A stretch of 64,000 nucleotides of DNA from Hippasteria phrygiana (lineage: Eukaryota > Echinodermata > Asteroidea > Valvatida > Goniasteridae), in assembly GCA_037893225.1 (NCBI GenBank), contig JAZGUH010000185.1:3111501-3175500 (forward strand), given 5' to 3'. Below the pieces are notes generated by a model, which made no database searches, was not told where the DNA came from, and saw only the letters and a list, made by a program, of their open reading frames with translations. The translations under genes were made by a program, and so were the position numbers. Positions 20,821 to 38,800 of the stretch are shown in pieces (position 1 is the stretch's first letter; each line of letters starts with the position of its first letter).

Positions 20821-20887
20821 ATGGCTTCTTTACCATTCCCTGCGTTCACACCGTGCCTAGCTATTTGGCTGATGTTGTTTCCACAAG
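20821..20887 (+). CDS. Cassette A leader exon (signal peptide)
   Basis: The exon opens [22 protein letters not shown] and stops at AAG|GTAAGG in phase 1 after 67 nt. The core L-A-I-W-L-M-L-F is hydrophobic. The start was chosen by alignment with four other leaders that share M-A-x-x-x-x-(A/S)-x-T-x-C and the context GGCGGAAATGG / GACGGAAATGG. It is the most 5' and most divergent cassette. Confidence 0.8.
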
Positions 20888-23800
20888 GTAAGGATAATGT
20901 AGAAGTATTGCAAAACGCAGTGAGAAAATTAGAATTAGAAATGAGATCAACGTTTTCTGAGTTTTACTTTATTCAAACGGGATTCTCCTAACCGTCAAGC
21001 ATTCCAAGTCATATATTCCATGACTGCCATTTATCAGCCTAAGTATTGAACCTAAGTAATGTATTGAAAGACCCTTCGTGATCAGATCAAACAAAATTCA
21101 CAGATTACCACAGATTACATATCTACCAAAAAGAAGATACAGAGTTCTAAATGGACACTTGTGATTATAATGGACTGTTAATTTCCATATATTTGTTCCC
21201 ACGTCACACGAAAATGCAGGTGATGATGCAATTGATTTTGTGTTATTTTAAATGATGTTGCAGGTGTAAGTGTTTCAATGGATTTTGTGTTAAACTATTA
21301 CAAATGATGTTTTTTCTTTCAGTGGCGCTGTCCCAAAATGTTGTCTTCATCACTGACGCCTGGGCTGACATTGGCAAGAGAACAGTAATGACATGTGCCA
21401 TTGGCCAACATATTGGTCTGGATCAGGTTCAGTTGTTGAAGAATGATTTGAGTTCATCAGATACTGCAGGTGCTATACTGATCTATGAGTATGATGCACT
21501 GCTTGGGGTAGCTAACCCTGGGGCTACTGTGAATGCATCTCGCTATGAGTTTCTTGCAGCTGGTAATTTTCCTCTCACTATTAAATCTGTTGAGCTGACA
21601 GATGAAGGGAAATACTGGTGTGCCGTTACTGCTATTACCACCGAGGGATTTAGAGAATCGTCAGTCCTAAACGTTAGAGGTATGTGTCTTAATCATCCAA
21701 GCAAACTTGTGGTCTTATTTCAATTTAATTGTTACTATGTCACTACAAAATATTGGACTGTATTTTCCAACAAAGCCATCGTACTAAATGTTTTAACCCA
21801 TTCGCGCATGATGGGACTTTAAAGTCCCAGCCCAATCTATAACGTAAAATTCAGTGTAAGAATAATTATTTGGGCATGAAAGGGTTAAAGAGGAACTAAA
21901 ACGCCAATTTTTTTTTGGACATTTTTGACTTATCTGATAGTTTATGCCTCCCCAAATCTAATGTAACAAGTTTCATGATTCTGAAAAATCAAAAAAAATG
22001 TTTTTGAGCCTTTTCTTTCTGAGCCACTTTGACTCGATTCAGAAAAGGCCGAGGTCAACTGCGTGCCGTATCGCGCGAGTATTGACGTACACGTGTAGAA
22101 ACATATGACGTCACTGTATTATACGACAATGTTTTACGTAGAGTCTGTACGTATTTTTTTGTCTAAGGCTAGTATTACTTGCTGTGCTTTTTGCTCATGA
22201 TTCAGGAGTAACACTACGATAAACATATTTTAAAGTGTTGACATCTTTGTGAGACACATTAAGAATTGGGGTTGTAGGCTTGTTCTTGCTGAAAAGCTAG
22301 TTATGAGTCATACTTTCCTTTGTTTGCAGTCGGCTTTTATTGGGACCTGCGCGGTGAGTTGTGTGTGAGCTGATGCTATACTCTAGTCTGGCGACTTTGC
22401 TTATGCAGCCCTCATAAGGACCCGCACCTTCTCAGAACTATACACACAATTTCTGTTATAAGGTACCAGACTCAATCGCATGCAGCACGATATGGGGCAG
22501 CTTTTTTCACCATGCATCATCTGCAGGACCTACAACTTCCTACAGTCCTACACAAAACTGGTTCACTGTATCCGTCTTTGCTTTTTACTTTGTGAACATT
22601 TCAATGGTGTAGGACTGTAGGAAGTGTAGGATCCTACAAAATATACGGAGTGAAAAAAGCTGCCTCATATCCGGCAGGGTATACATGCGGTACCGTGAGT
22701 TTGTATATGCCGGCAATCGTGGACCTAGGACAAAAGAATTCGGGCGTAGACAAAGGGGTCCACGTTTGACCTAACGTCCACGATTGAAAATCGTGTACAA
22801 AACTAATGGGAGGCCTTCCGAAAAAGTTAGAGTATAAACAAAAGAGGAACAATGGGAGGTCCACGATTGCACCCGTTTACATGACTGGGTGCGTGTACAA
22901 TGCATGTTGAGTCAAGCGAGCGTGGACAGCTAGGGAGACGACCGGGGCTCTCTGGCTGATCGAGACGGCAACCGCAGTTAACGTCGTCGCGCTGGTGCGC
23001 GTGAGTCCGGGACACGATTGGAATGCTCGGTGCTTTTAGAGTTGGAATGGCTCCATCCTTCAAACGGAATTGTGCCTTCAAACCCAGCTGAGTTTTCATA
23101 CTAACACTATCATCTATTCTATACAGTCTTTGGCGAAATGTTCTGCACATATTTTCGACCATTTCGACAGCCCAAAATCAGATATTGTATTGTCTACAAA
23201 GCGGACCCATGTCGCCTTTGAGCTCCATTCAGCACTGGGAATCGCAGTAAGGTTGGGTCAGGGTTTTTGTCGCTGTTCCTCGTGCAACCCCCAAATACAC
23301 ACGATCGAGGCATAATGATTATCTCAGATCCATGCTCATACTGAAATAATATCAAAATTAGACAAAATAGACGGGAAAACGGAGGAGTTAGGTCGACAAA
23401 AACTCTTCAGCAGCATCAACTCCACGTACGTACATGCATAGTGTTTGGCTGTAGCATCAACCGACTCTACACGTGTACGTCACGGGGTCACGTACATACA
23501 TTTAACATACATAATGAGCTTTCGCGAAACAGGATAAATGGTTCAGAATAACAACCCTTTTTTTTAATAAAAAAATTCTCTCGTCTGCAAACTAATCTCC
23601 ATCAGGTAAAGGAGTATTTAAACTGTCGGAAAAGTCAAAAAAGTCAAAAATTTTTTGCCGTTTTAGTTCCTCTTTAACTTAGTTTACATAATGTGAACAT
23701 TACAATAGGGTTATAAAATTAAAGCAAGAACATAAAACAAGCTAAAAACCAACTGACACCAAAAACCTTCAGGATGATAATAAGTTCTTTTATGTGCTTT

Positions 23801-35800: not shown

Positions 35801-38800
35801 AAGGCAAATGCTTAAAGTGAACGTTGACATGCAATACAAGGACCCATACGTTCAAGTTATAGGCTGAACCAATATCCGCCTTGCGCTTCATGTTTCTATG
35901 TGCAGCAGGCAAAGTGTGAATCTACGCAAAGGTTGGAATTCCCATTTTGCCTGGGTGGGCAAATTGGGAATTCCAATACTGCCCGAAATAAGGGAATGCC
36001 TAGGTTTATGTTGTATTTTAATAAGGCCTCCCACTTTTGCCAATTTAAGGTAATATTAACGCAATGGGGAATGTTACCGGATGAATAGTTTAGGATGTTT
36101 GATAGGCCTAGCATTGGAAATTGTGTCATTCCCAGTTTGCCCACTAATGCCCAGGTTTTGCTGTAGCGCAATGTGAGAATGTTGATTGCGATTATTTAAA
36201 GCACCCCTCTCTGCCCGCTGAATGTCCACAGGCAAATACGATTGATTGCTGTCGTGTATGCATTCCCTTATTAGCACGCGCAGTATTGGAATTCACACTT
36301 TCTCCAGGGCAGATTCCCACATTGCGCGTGACATGCTGACGACAGTTTTCTCGTTCGTAGGAATCACGTATGTTCATGCACTTTATTTCTTTCTTTCATG
36401 GTTTCTCCTGTCTTTGTTTTACCCAGCTACTGCTCAACTGATTGTCAGGGGCAATGCATGGGTTGAAAACGGTAGAAGTACAACCCTGAGGTGTGAGGCT
36501 CCCAGCATCTTTGACGAGCTGATATGGATGAAAACTGACTTCAGCGTGGATAGCATAGACGGAAGCGGAACAGCTATCGTGGTGTATACACCCTCAACTG
36601 GAGAGATTCTCAACCAGAATCCCAATCGTTACAGTTTGGATGAAACTGATTCTGAGTATCCGTTAACAATAACACCATTTGCATTGCAAGATGAAGGGAG
36701 ATATTGGTGTTACGTAAACGCTCCTGGTGTAATATTCGAAACAGGTTCACTGGATGTCAAGATAAGAGGTACGCAAATTATTGCGACCATCCTCATCTTT
36801 CTACTAAATGCATTTAGAAGTGAATTTTCGTATTTGTCTTCAACTTTACAAGTAAGTTCGTTCAGACCGATTCTGTATTATTTTAATTCAAAGTATGCTG
36901 AATTTTGTAATTTTTTCATGAACCTTTTAATCTGATCGAAAAGTTGTCTTTTCGAAAGGGGGAGGGTGTGCAACCCCCAAGATCAAAATTTTGGTTTATT
37001 GTTGAGATGGATACAAATTGACCTTACTGCGTATAATCTTGATTCACTTGATTCCTTCACAGTTACCGCTCAGAAAGTCTATATGATAGCTTAAACCGAG
37101 ATCCCAGTCATTATTTATTTATTTATCTATTTATTATGAAACTAATTCTGAATATCCATTAACTGTAACACCATTTACACATGAAGATGAGGGAAGATAT
37201 TGGTGCTTTGTGAGAAATACTGCGAATGACGCCGAAGGTTGACTGGATTTGCAGATACGAGATACCTACCGAATGACACCCCGAATGGCAATCATTACGG
37301 TTTATATGAAACTGATTCTGAGCATCCGTTAACAATAACTCCATTTACTTTAATACGAAGATGAGGGAAGATATTTGTATTTTGTGAGAAATACTGCGAA
37401 TGAAGTAACGGGTTTCTTGATTTTGCGGATAACAGGTGTTACATTTTCCTGTTTTAAAAATGTTCCGTTACAAAAAGAGGCCAACAATGTAAAGACAAAC
37501 GTCCGATTCCTAGAAACCAGAAATCTCGTTATTTGAACACTTCAGATGATTTTGAGTAAAAAATGGTCGCTTATTTCAACATACACGGTGTAACTTTTGA
37601 CTGCTAAATTTGGTCGCAACTTCATTGGACAACAGATTTTATTTAACAATTAAATATATAATTTATAATTAAAATGAGAAGTTGATCAGTCAGATAAAAT
37701 GATTGGTAGACAATTTAGCAGTTTTGATTTATGTTGATGCTGTACTGTTGAGACGATTTTGTTATATTGTACAGGTTCTGTATATACTTCCGAGGACAAG
37801 AGGACAAAGGAAATACAAAGAAACCTTTCAGTTCTCGCAAGTCAAGTCTTTTGTTGAAATCGGTCCTCGCAAGTAGAAGTACGTGCTTAGTCTATGGGGT
37901 TGGGTTATATTAAAGGAACAATGGGAAACACAAAGCATTGTCCTCGGAAGTATTGGAAAAGTATGCGTGAGTTTGTATAGCTATTCAAACCGTGGACCTT
38001 TAACAAAGAGGACAATAGGGTCCACGATTGAGTCAAGGTCCACGATTGAAAATCGTGTACAAGACATAATTATGGGAGGCCTTCCGAAAAAGTTAGAGTA
38101 TAAACAAAAGAGGAACAATGGGAGGTCCGCAATTTAGTTCATACAGTTTCAAAATGTAGAAATCACTGGTGTAAGGGCCTGGGAGAGAGTTGAGAGAGAA
38201 AAGTCGCCTACACTTTAAAAGACGTGCGCACATCATGATCCAAGTTAAAGCGTATAAGGCGCTATTTTTTTTTTAACTGACGTCGCAAAAAGGCAGCCAC
38301 TGCGTACACCCACAAACAAAACTCGGCCAAAAATTGTTTGGCCCCTCCCAACAAATTGCAAAAAAAAAAATTGGTTTGGCTCCCAAAAAAATAGTGTTCT
38401 GGATCCGCCCTTGGGTGCTATTGGGCGAGTGGATTTGTGGTGTAGTCGCCCAATATAAGGCTAAAAGCCACTTCATGTAAAGGGTTATACAACCGAGGTA
38501 GAAGGTCAATGGCCGCATTTTCATGTTGGCAGCCCTGCCACCGTTATGGTTTTTCTCGGTCCAGATTTGAACAGAGGATAAATATTCAATAGCTACTAAA
38601 GAAATAATCCCAATCTTCAGACCCAGGCGGGGTAACATCCACCGTTGGTTAGACCAACTCACCTCTCCCAAATATTTTTTTTTGGGGGGGGGGGGGTGGG
38701 GTGGGGGTGATTTAAGCACTTGAGGCGCTGGATGTAATTTTGAACCTCCTCTCACGTGGCAATGATATTGTTAGTTACCTTATGCAGTTGGTGTGCAGGA

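Follow-up and report, generated by a model that had tools for sequence, protein, structure and literature searches.

Five leader and V-like immunoglobulin cassettes ahead of one receptor tyrosine kinase body: a candidate variable 5' cassette gene in the sea star Hippasteria phrygiana

Tandem variable 5' units that share constant 3' exons are known from several gene families. The chelicerate sDscam-alpha genes have tandem two-exon cassettes, each encoding one immunoglobulin (Ig) domain and preceded by a promoter, ahead of constant exons; an in-frame stop generally lies shortly upstream of each ATG, and the cassettes are thought to derive from duplication of exons plus promoter (PMC4835542). The scorpion gene has at least 40 cassettes, and its Ig corresponds to Dscam1 Ig7; across sDscam genes at least 264 junctions are reported, 249 of which linked neighbours within a cassette (PMC4835542). 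Vertebrate clustered protocadherins are likewise described as having variable 5' units with their own promoters and shared 3' exons (PMC4835542, PMC1885805), and the UGT1 and GCNT2 clusters are reported to have tandem variable first exons, constant exons, birth-and-death evolution and pseudogene exons, the UGT1 unit being a single exon that carries both the signal peptide and the recognition domain (PMC1885805). Here, a 64,000-nucleotide stretch of the Hippasteria phrygiana genome (the window; G000:C185:3111501-3175500 of the 944 Mb assembly) is described, in which five leader plus V-like Ig cassettes precede a single receptor tyrosine kinase body. The arrangement is read, with a probability of about three in four, as one kinase gene that would display one of five V-like tips through alternative promoters and exon skipping. 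The gene and its cassettes, named A to E, are laid out as follows:

20821-51534, + strand, gene extent: five leader plus V-like Ig cassettes, then a body of 20 exons bounded by AG/GT splice sites
20821..20887, + strand, leader exon A, ending in phase 1
21323..21679, + strand, V-like Ig exon A, phase 1-1, V-set 26.7 bits (cut-off 26)
26291..26357, + strand, leader exon B
27030..27389, + strand, V-like Ig exon B, V-set 35.7 bits
28593..28656, + strand, leader exon C
29057..29401, + strand, V-like Ig exon C, V-set 24.1 bits, slightly below the cut-off of 26
30889..30955, + strand, leader exon D
31817..32176, + strand, V-like Ig exon D, V-set 36.5 bits
35437..35503, + strand, leader exon E
36427..36768, + strand, V-like Ig exon E, V-set 61.6 bits, scored inside the full E isoform

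The five leaders, 64-67 nt long, all have a phase-1 end; the five V-like Ig exons, of 342-360 nt, are in phase 1 at both boundaries; and each cassette joins the phase-1 start of the body at 39291 in an open frame that runs to a common stop at 51532-51534. The joined product is 1370 residues long with cassette A, 1371 with B or D, and 1365 with C or E. The first-pass annotation had proposed leader starts at 20821, 26291, 28593, 30889 and 35437, Ig ends at 21679, 27389, 29401, 32176 and 36768, a body start at 39291, these same phases and five open cassettes, all of which the joined frames bear out. The signal peptide, judged by eye, lies mostly in the leader exon with the remainder in the Ig exon; in vertebrate V genes, too, it is split between a leader exon and the V exon. 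Scores above the V-set (PF07686) cut-off of 26 place the Ig domains of four of the five cassettes (A, B, D and E) in this family, C falling below it. A variable 5' cassette gene is recognised by alternative 5' units that lie in tandem and read in frame into common 3' exons; the present gene has this layout, which recurs in two further arrays, on C185 and C607. Queries with all five cassettes returned no further intact cassette in the window, and queries with Ig B and Ig E returned none on C185 ahead of it.

The shared part of the gene consists of the following exons:

39291-51534, + strand, body span, 20 exons, open
39291-39641, 40270-40599, 41332-41634, 42018-42323, 42600-42884 and 43509-43835, + strand, six Ig exons of the body, all phase 1-1
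44418-44714, + strand, FN3 exon
45002-45022, + strand, small exon
45416-45643, + strand, membrane-proximal, cysteine-bearing exon
46153-46287, + strand, transmembrane exon, judged by eye
46796-46817 and 47037-47098, + strand, juxtamembrane exons
47479..51105, + strand, seven tyrosine kinase exons
51457..51534, + strand, last coding exon, stop included, with several tyrosines in the tail

The kinase domain scores 306.8 bits against the Pfam tyrosine kinase model, and VAIK, HRD and DFG are present in its translation. Among the best 60 of 2395 solved kinase domains, the top match is one EGFR-named chain and the remainder are FGFR1 or FGFR2. With open frames of 1365-1371 residues, an intact kinase, and a signal peptide and transmembrane segment recognised by eye, the predicted product qualifies as a receptor tyrosine kinase, and the single six-Ig, FN3, transmembrane and kinase body that had been proposed stands, with 20 open exons. 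The intron ahead of the FN3 exon contains a perfect ATTCA pentamer repeat of 14 copies at 44059-44130.

The proposed mechanism is a duplicated 5' end, in which each unit of upstream start block, leader exon and V-like Ig exon would be a self-contained alternative beginning. Transcription would begin upstream of one leader, which would be spliced to its own Ig exon; the phase-1 donor of that exon would then be spliced to the start of the shared body at 39291, intervening Ig exons being removed together with the intron. The cell would thus show a six-Ig, FN3 and kinase receptor whose outermost domain is one of the five V-like Igs. From the sequence we infer promoter activity, skipping and ligand binding by the V-like tip. 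By analogy with sDscam, a mixture of canonical and non-canonical isoforms would be expected.

By this analogy of layout, chelicerate sDscam-alpha is the closest precedent, nearer than the protocadherins. Both loci have two-exon, one-Ig tandem 5' cassettes, an in-frame stop 5' of the ATG and constant exons; unlike sDscam-alpha, an adhesion molecule of a different gene family, the sea-star locus combines a V-like Ig with a receptor tyrosine kinase. To our knowledge, sDscam has no kinase, and a Dscam-type molecule is one without a kinase; with its tyrosine kinase body the present gene falls outside that class. It is not a clustered protocadherin either, since those have one large variable first exon of cadherin repeats and no kinase, whereas here the variable unit encodes an Ig and spans two exons, of which the Ig exon begins with a splice acceptor. 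The choice of a single tip therefore requires that the Ig exons further downstream be skipped. The first-pass annotation had likened the locus to clustered protocadherins and seen in it a choice of recognition tip for one kinase: the variable 5' units with shared 3' exons, the choice of cassette, an upstream block for each and alternative over serial use are all supported, but the two-exon cassettes with an Ig acceptor do not fit protocadherin as the nearest model, and sDscam-alpha, which it did not name, is closer. UGT1 and GCNT2 differ in being enzymes without Ig, not receptors. The Ig ectodomain and a kinase nearest FGFR1/2 among the solved structures listed resemble FGFR-type kinases; the six fixed Igs, FN3 and single V-like tip do not. 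Vertebrate Ig and T-cell receptor V segments have a leader apart from the V-type Ig exon, an octamer upstream and a tandem array with dead copies. The sea-star locus shares the split leader, an octamer-like ATTTGCAT upstream and the array with dead copies; unlike in those segments, the splice donor of each V-like exon joins a fixed body. The annotation had also known of no receptor tyrosine kinase of this build. The top matches of open-access literature searches, by title and abstract start, include no receptor tyrosine kinase with tandem 5' cassettes, and none among these matches is an FGFR-type kinase with tandem alternative leader plus V-like Ig units. What is new here is the 5' cassette layout with an FGFR-like kinase output, in a deuterostome; the layout itself is known from adhesion molecules. 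If transcripts confirm it, a kinase receptor would join the few molecules that choose a recognition tip from a tandem 5' array, tip choice would feed straight into kinase signalling, and 5' cassette choice, as in chelicerate sDscam and the protocadherins of vertebrates, would have a further origin in an echinoderm.

Genome searches returned 32 matches with the Ig B query and 34 with Ig E, mostly on C185 and C607, where two further arrays lie:

C185 3361191-3387654, array 2: seven leader plus Ig cassettes (2a-2g), then a second body at 3388625-3404541
C607 503187-517406, array 3: five cassettes (3a-3e), then a body at 519689-542645

The C607 array may be a third copy or a second haplotype of the region. 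Over the three arrays the Ig exons are open in 12 of 17 cassettes, and 5 of the 12 outside the window are broken: 2b, 2g and 3a by a stop (seen in two analyses), 2d and 3b by a frameshift. All seven joined frames tried through their own body, those of 2a, 2c, 2e, 2f, 3c, 3d and 3e, are open. Cassette 2g adjoins the array-2 body and carries an in-frame stop, and that body is open; cassettes must therefore be skippable, provided the stop is no assembly error, because it would cut every serial array-2 receptor.

Protein identity to the window body over exons b4-b20 is 91-100% for the C185 body and 90-100% for the C607 body (b8 and b11 being too short to score), and only 41-63% over b1-b3. The three leading Ig exons of the second body (G000:C185:3388625-3391621) are only 42-63% identical to those of the window, versus 91-100% in the scored later exons; so abrupt a change suggests that the 3' part was exchanged or converted. 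Array 2 also contains, at G000:C185:3366128-3370955 (L010, L011), three exact repeats of about 1625 bases with an identical Ig exon in each and a single leader, reflecting either a recent duplication or an assembly artefact. A further body, RTK3, is open over b2-b20. Upstream of it lie a single V-like exon on C185 and two such exons on C607; the queries used matched neither its b1 nor its leaders, so its link to the V-like exons is positional only. Other family members, examined over 10-20 kb each, show a single V-like exon close to a single body start, for example C185:3216662 and 3218062, or C786:168918 and 171850. For this reason, one cassette per body is probably the ancestral state and the arrays derived.

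Each window leader is preceded by an upstream block:

20409..20820, + strand, upstream block A, ATTTGCATATGAA at -412
25884..26290, + strand, upstream block B, within a 569-base match (76%) to E
28081..28592, + strand, upstream block C, TATAAA at -200
30599..30888, + strand, upstream block D, within a 674-base match to B, 86%
35004..35436, + strand, upstream block E, ATTTGCATATGAA at -433

The upstream blocks are conserved between cassette types, and the leader introns, in the six pairs tested, are not: stretches from -450 to -10 beat all 300 window control segments in 9/10 pairs, with 6 of 300 controls equally good for the A-E pair, whereas none of the six leader-intron pairs beat all controls (8, 14, 98, 171, 239 and 242 of 300 equally good). 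The B-E match runs at 76% for 569 bases from 25884 and 35004 through the leader, and the synonymous sites of leader and Ig in this pair are saturated. An in-frame stop 27-222 bases 5' of the ATG and a phase-1 GT donor accompany 17/17 leaders in the three arrays; TATAAA-like sites are inconsistent among cassettes. When the B start and leader stretch was used as a query, which does not reach the A and C types, its 12 matches in 944 Mb all fell at leaders of the three arrays. The stretch at 24634-25048 partly duplicates the start region of cassette C, at 84% over 451 aligned bases; no leader or Ig was matched behind it, and it is likely a remnant of a lost cassette.

The cassettes of the window are 30-81% identical over leader and Ig: D and B share 81%, and all remaining pairs 30-56% in protein. 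The ratio of non-synonymous to synonymous change (dN/dS) over leader and Ig is 0.29-0.43 in 9/10 pairs, the remaining one being B/D, a young pair with 0.74; dS is about 1.6-2.2 (saturated) in eight of the nine low-ratio pairs, 0.77 in C/E and 0.15 in B/D. That synonymous change is saturated while the frames stay open argues for long maintenance of the cassettes, and these identities and ratios, together with the recurrence of the layout in the genome, make the window layout more than chance. What an unmaintained copy looks like at this locus is shown by dead fragments near the cassettes: decayed C/E-type Ig fragments with a stop and frame breaks, the remains of a dead cassette, lie at 37005..37403 (+ strand). 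Two short pieces, one like part of an A-type V-like Ig at 20306-20350 (seen in the frame list) and one resembling it at about 27577-27640 (by eye), look like further dead cassette pieces.

Diversifying selection on the binding face was considered and rejected. In seven B-type Ig exons non-synonymous variation is concentrated on what is presumed to be the C/C'/FG side (Fisher p 2.6e-5). Synonymous variation is concentrated there as well (p 0.001), so that the clustering does not argue for selection, and it becomes weak (p 0.09) when D is left out. Clustering on this side is absent in E, 2f and 3d (p 0.79), and all five E-type exons give p 0.014 (synonymous 0.088). Recent pairs have many non-synonymous changes, with dN/dS of 0.47-3.6 (B-type) and 0.60-3.0 (E-type), and near-neutral drift suffices for them because exon divergence is mostly about equal to intron divergence, the exception being E-3d (exon 5.3% versus 1.7% upstream and 2.8% in the intron).

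A protein search that scored 7997 candidates sharing most words returned as best matches the sea-star receptor kinases Patiria miniata P0001 (68% identity), Acanthaster planci P0002, isoform X2 (62%) and Asterias rubens P0004, isoform X2 (49%). Eleven sea-star proteins were inspected and scored with a V-like Ig profile that itself includes P0002, P0004 and P0008. A leader and one V-like Ig ahead of the shared Ig body are present in P0002, P0004, P0017 and P0018, the last without a kinase. P0005 starts within its one V-like Ig, P0001 and P0009 begin at the body, while P0003, P0006 and P0007 differ at the N-terminus and show no match to the profile; P0008, with two V-like units and body Igs after each, is probably two genes fused in the model. 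The V-like Ig of A. planci P0002 groups with cassette A in the tree (99/97), so that in A. planci this body directly follows a tip of the V type found in the cassette farthest from it in the window. Clustering at 90% identity (6 members for P0002, 19 for P0004, 22 for P0018) may hide isoforms with different tips in the P0004 and P0018 clusters, because the tip makes up only about a tenth of the protein. A. amurensis P0017, with a kinase, and P0018, without, are nearly identical in V-like Ig and ectodomain, and the P0018 tail has several tyrosine motifs; the pair recalls paired receptors with different tails. One tentative extension, with the odds well against it, is a germline, non-rearranging V-region system for immune or self recognition, in which a cell or tissue would pick one tip, cassettes would turn over fast and differ between arrays or haplotypes, and related receptors with an ectodomain of the same kind and a tyrosine-rich tail instead of the kinase, as in the A. 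amurensis pair P0017 and P0018, would act as partners.

Predicted alternative rather than serial use is supported by broken cassettes beside open bodies and by the single V-like Ig of the sea-star models. Several observations weigh on the other side. The motif counts at the starts, i.e., ten copies of the 13-mer ATTTGCATATGAA in the 264 kb examined, all at -378 to -434 of leaders (10/17 leaders), and 17 copies of GAACC-N1-2-GAAGT (one strand counted), 16 of them at -209 to -257 (16/17 leaders), illustrate and do not prove, because the motifs were picked after viewing the alignment and the copies are related. The start motifs, which we take to be of the octamer and ETS kinds, are not uniform: the exact octamer is missing in C, D, 2b, 2d, 2e and 3b. 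The full arrangement is present in only 4/11 sea-star proteins, which are database models, not cDNAs, and the A-P0002 grouping unites two long branches. Each Ig exon has its own acceptor, making serial inclusion in frame in the window, and the single array-2 leader followed by three identical Ig exons is unexplained by a simple rule unless it is an assembly artefact.

These last two points would suit a nested series, in which promoter choice sets the number of V-like Igs, five from the A start and one from the E start: with all window Ig exons phase 1-1 and equipped with acceptors, any series stays in frame, and sDscam yields about 10-40% non-canonical isoforms in most genes, some with extra Igs (PMC4835542). 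Such a series would always be truncated in array 2, where 2g has its in-frame stop, 2b and 2d are broken and the body is open, and P0002, P0004, P0017 and P0018 each have a single V-like Ig; even granting that the 2g stop could be an assembly error (the matching cassette on C607, 3e, has no stop at this codon), serial use is unlikely. It is quite unlikely that E, or some one cassette, alone serves the kinase, with A-D being leftovers or separate small leader plus V-like Ig genes that end by intron read-through. Asterias rubens P0021 is indeed annotated as a 167-residue leader and V protein, P0022, P0023 and P0025 resemble similar short reads into an intron, and 5/17 cassettes and several fragments are dead; such short models may, however, reflect a gene caller reading on past a single exon, all five window cassettes preserve their donors and phases, dN/dS is low in all pairs but B/D (0.29-0.43 in 9/10), and the V-like Ig nearest cassette A sits on this body in A. 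planci P0002. Inflation of the array by mis-assembly or haplotype stacking is very improbable: C607 may be a second haplotype retained in the assembly and the three array-2 Ig exons lie on exact 1625-base repeats, but the five window cassettes are on one contig, and since pairs other than B/D (81%) are only 30-56% identical in protein, they are not copies of one cassette. Alternative use of the five cassettes by one kinase gene thus remains the preferred reading.

Around the gene, ten of the 25 open frames of at least 90 aa were scanned, with no Pfam match at 0.01. An Rfam scan of the window returned only four transfer RNA (tRNA) matches, two of which read as tRNA-Thr:

8623-8682, - strand, tRNA match
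10552-10624, - strand, tRNA match
34314-34386, - strand, tRNA match
49281-49353, + strand, tRNA match

Because two of the four fall inside the gene, the matches suggest tRNA-derived repeats.

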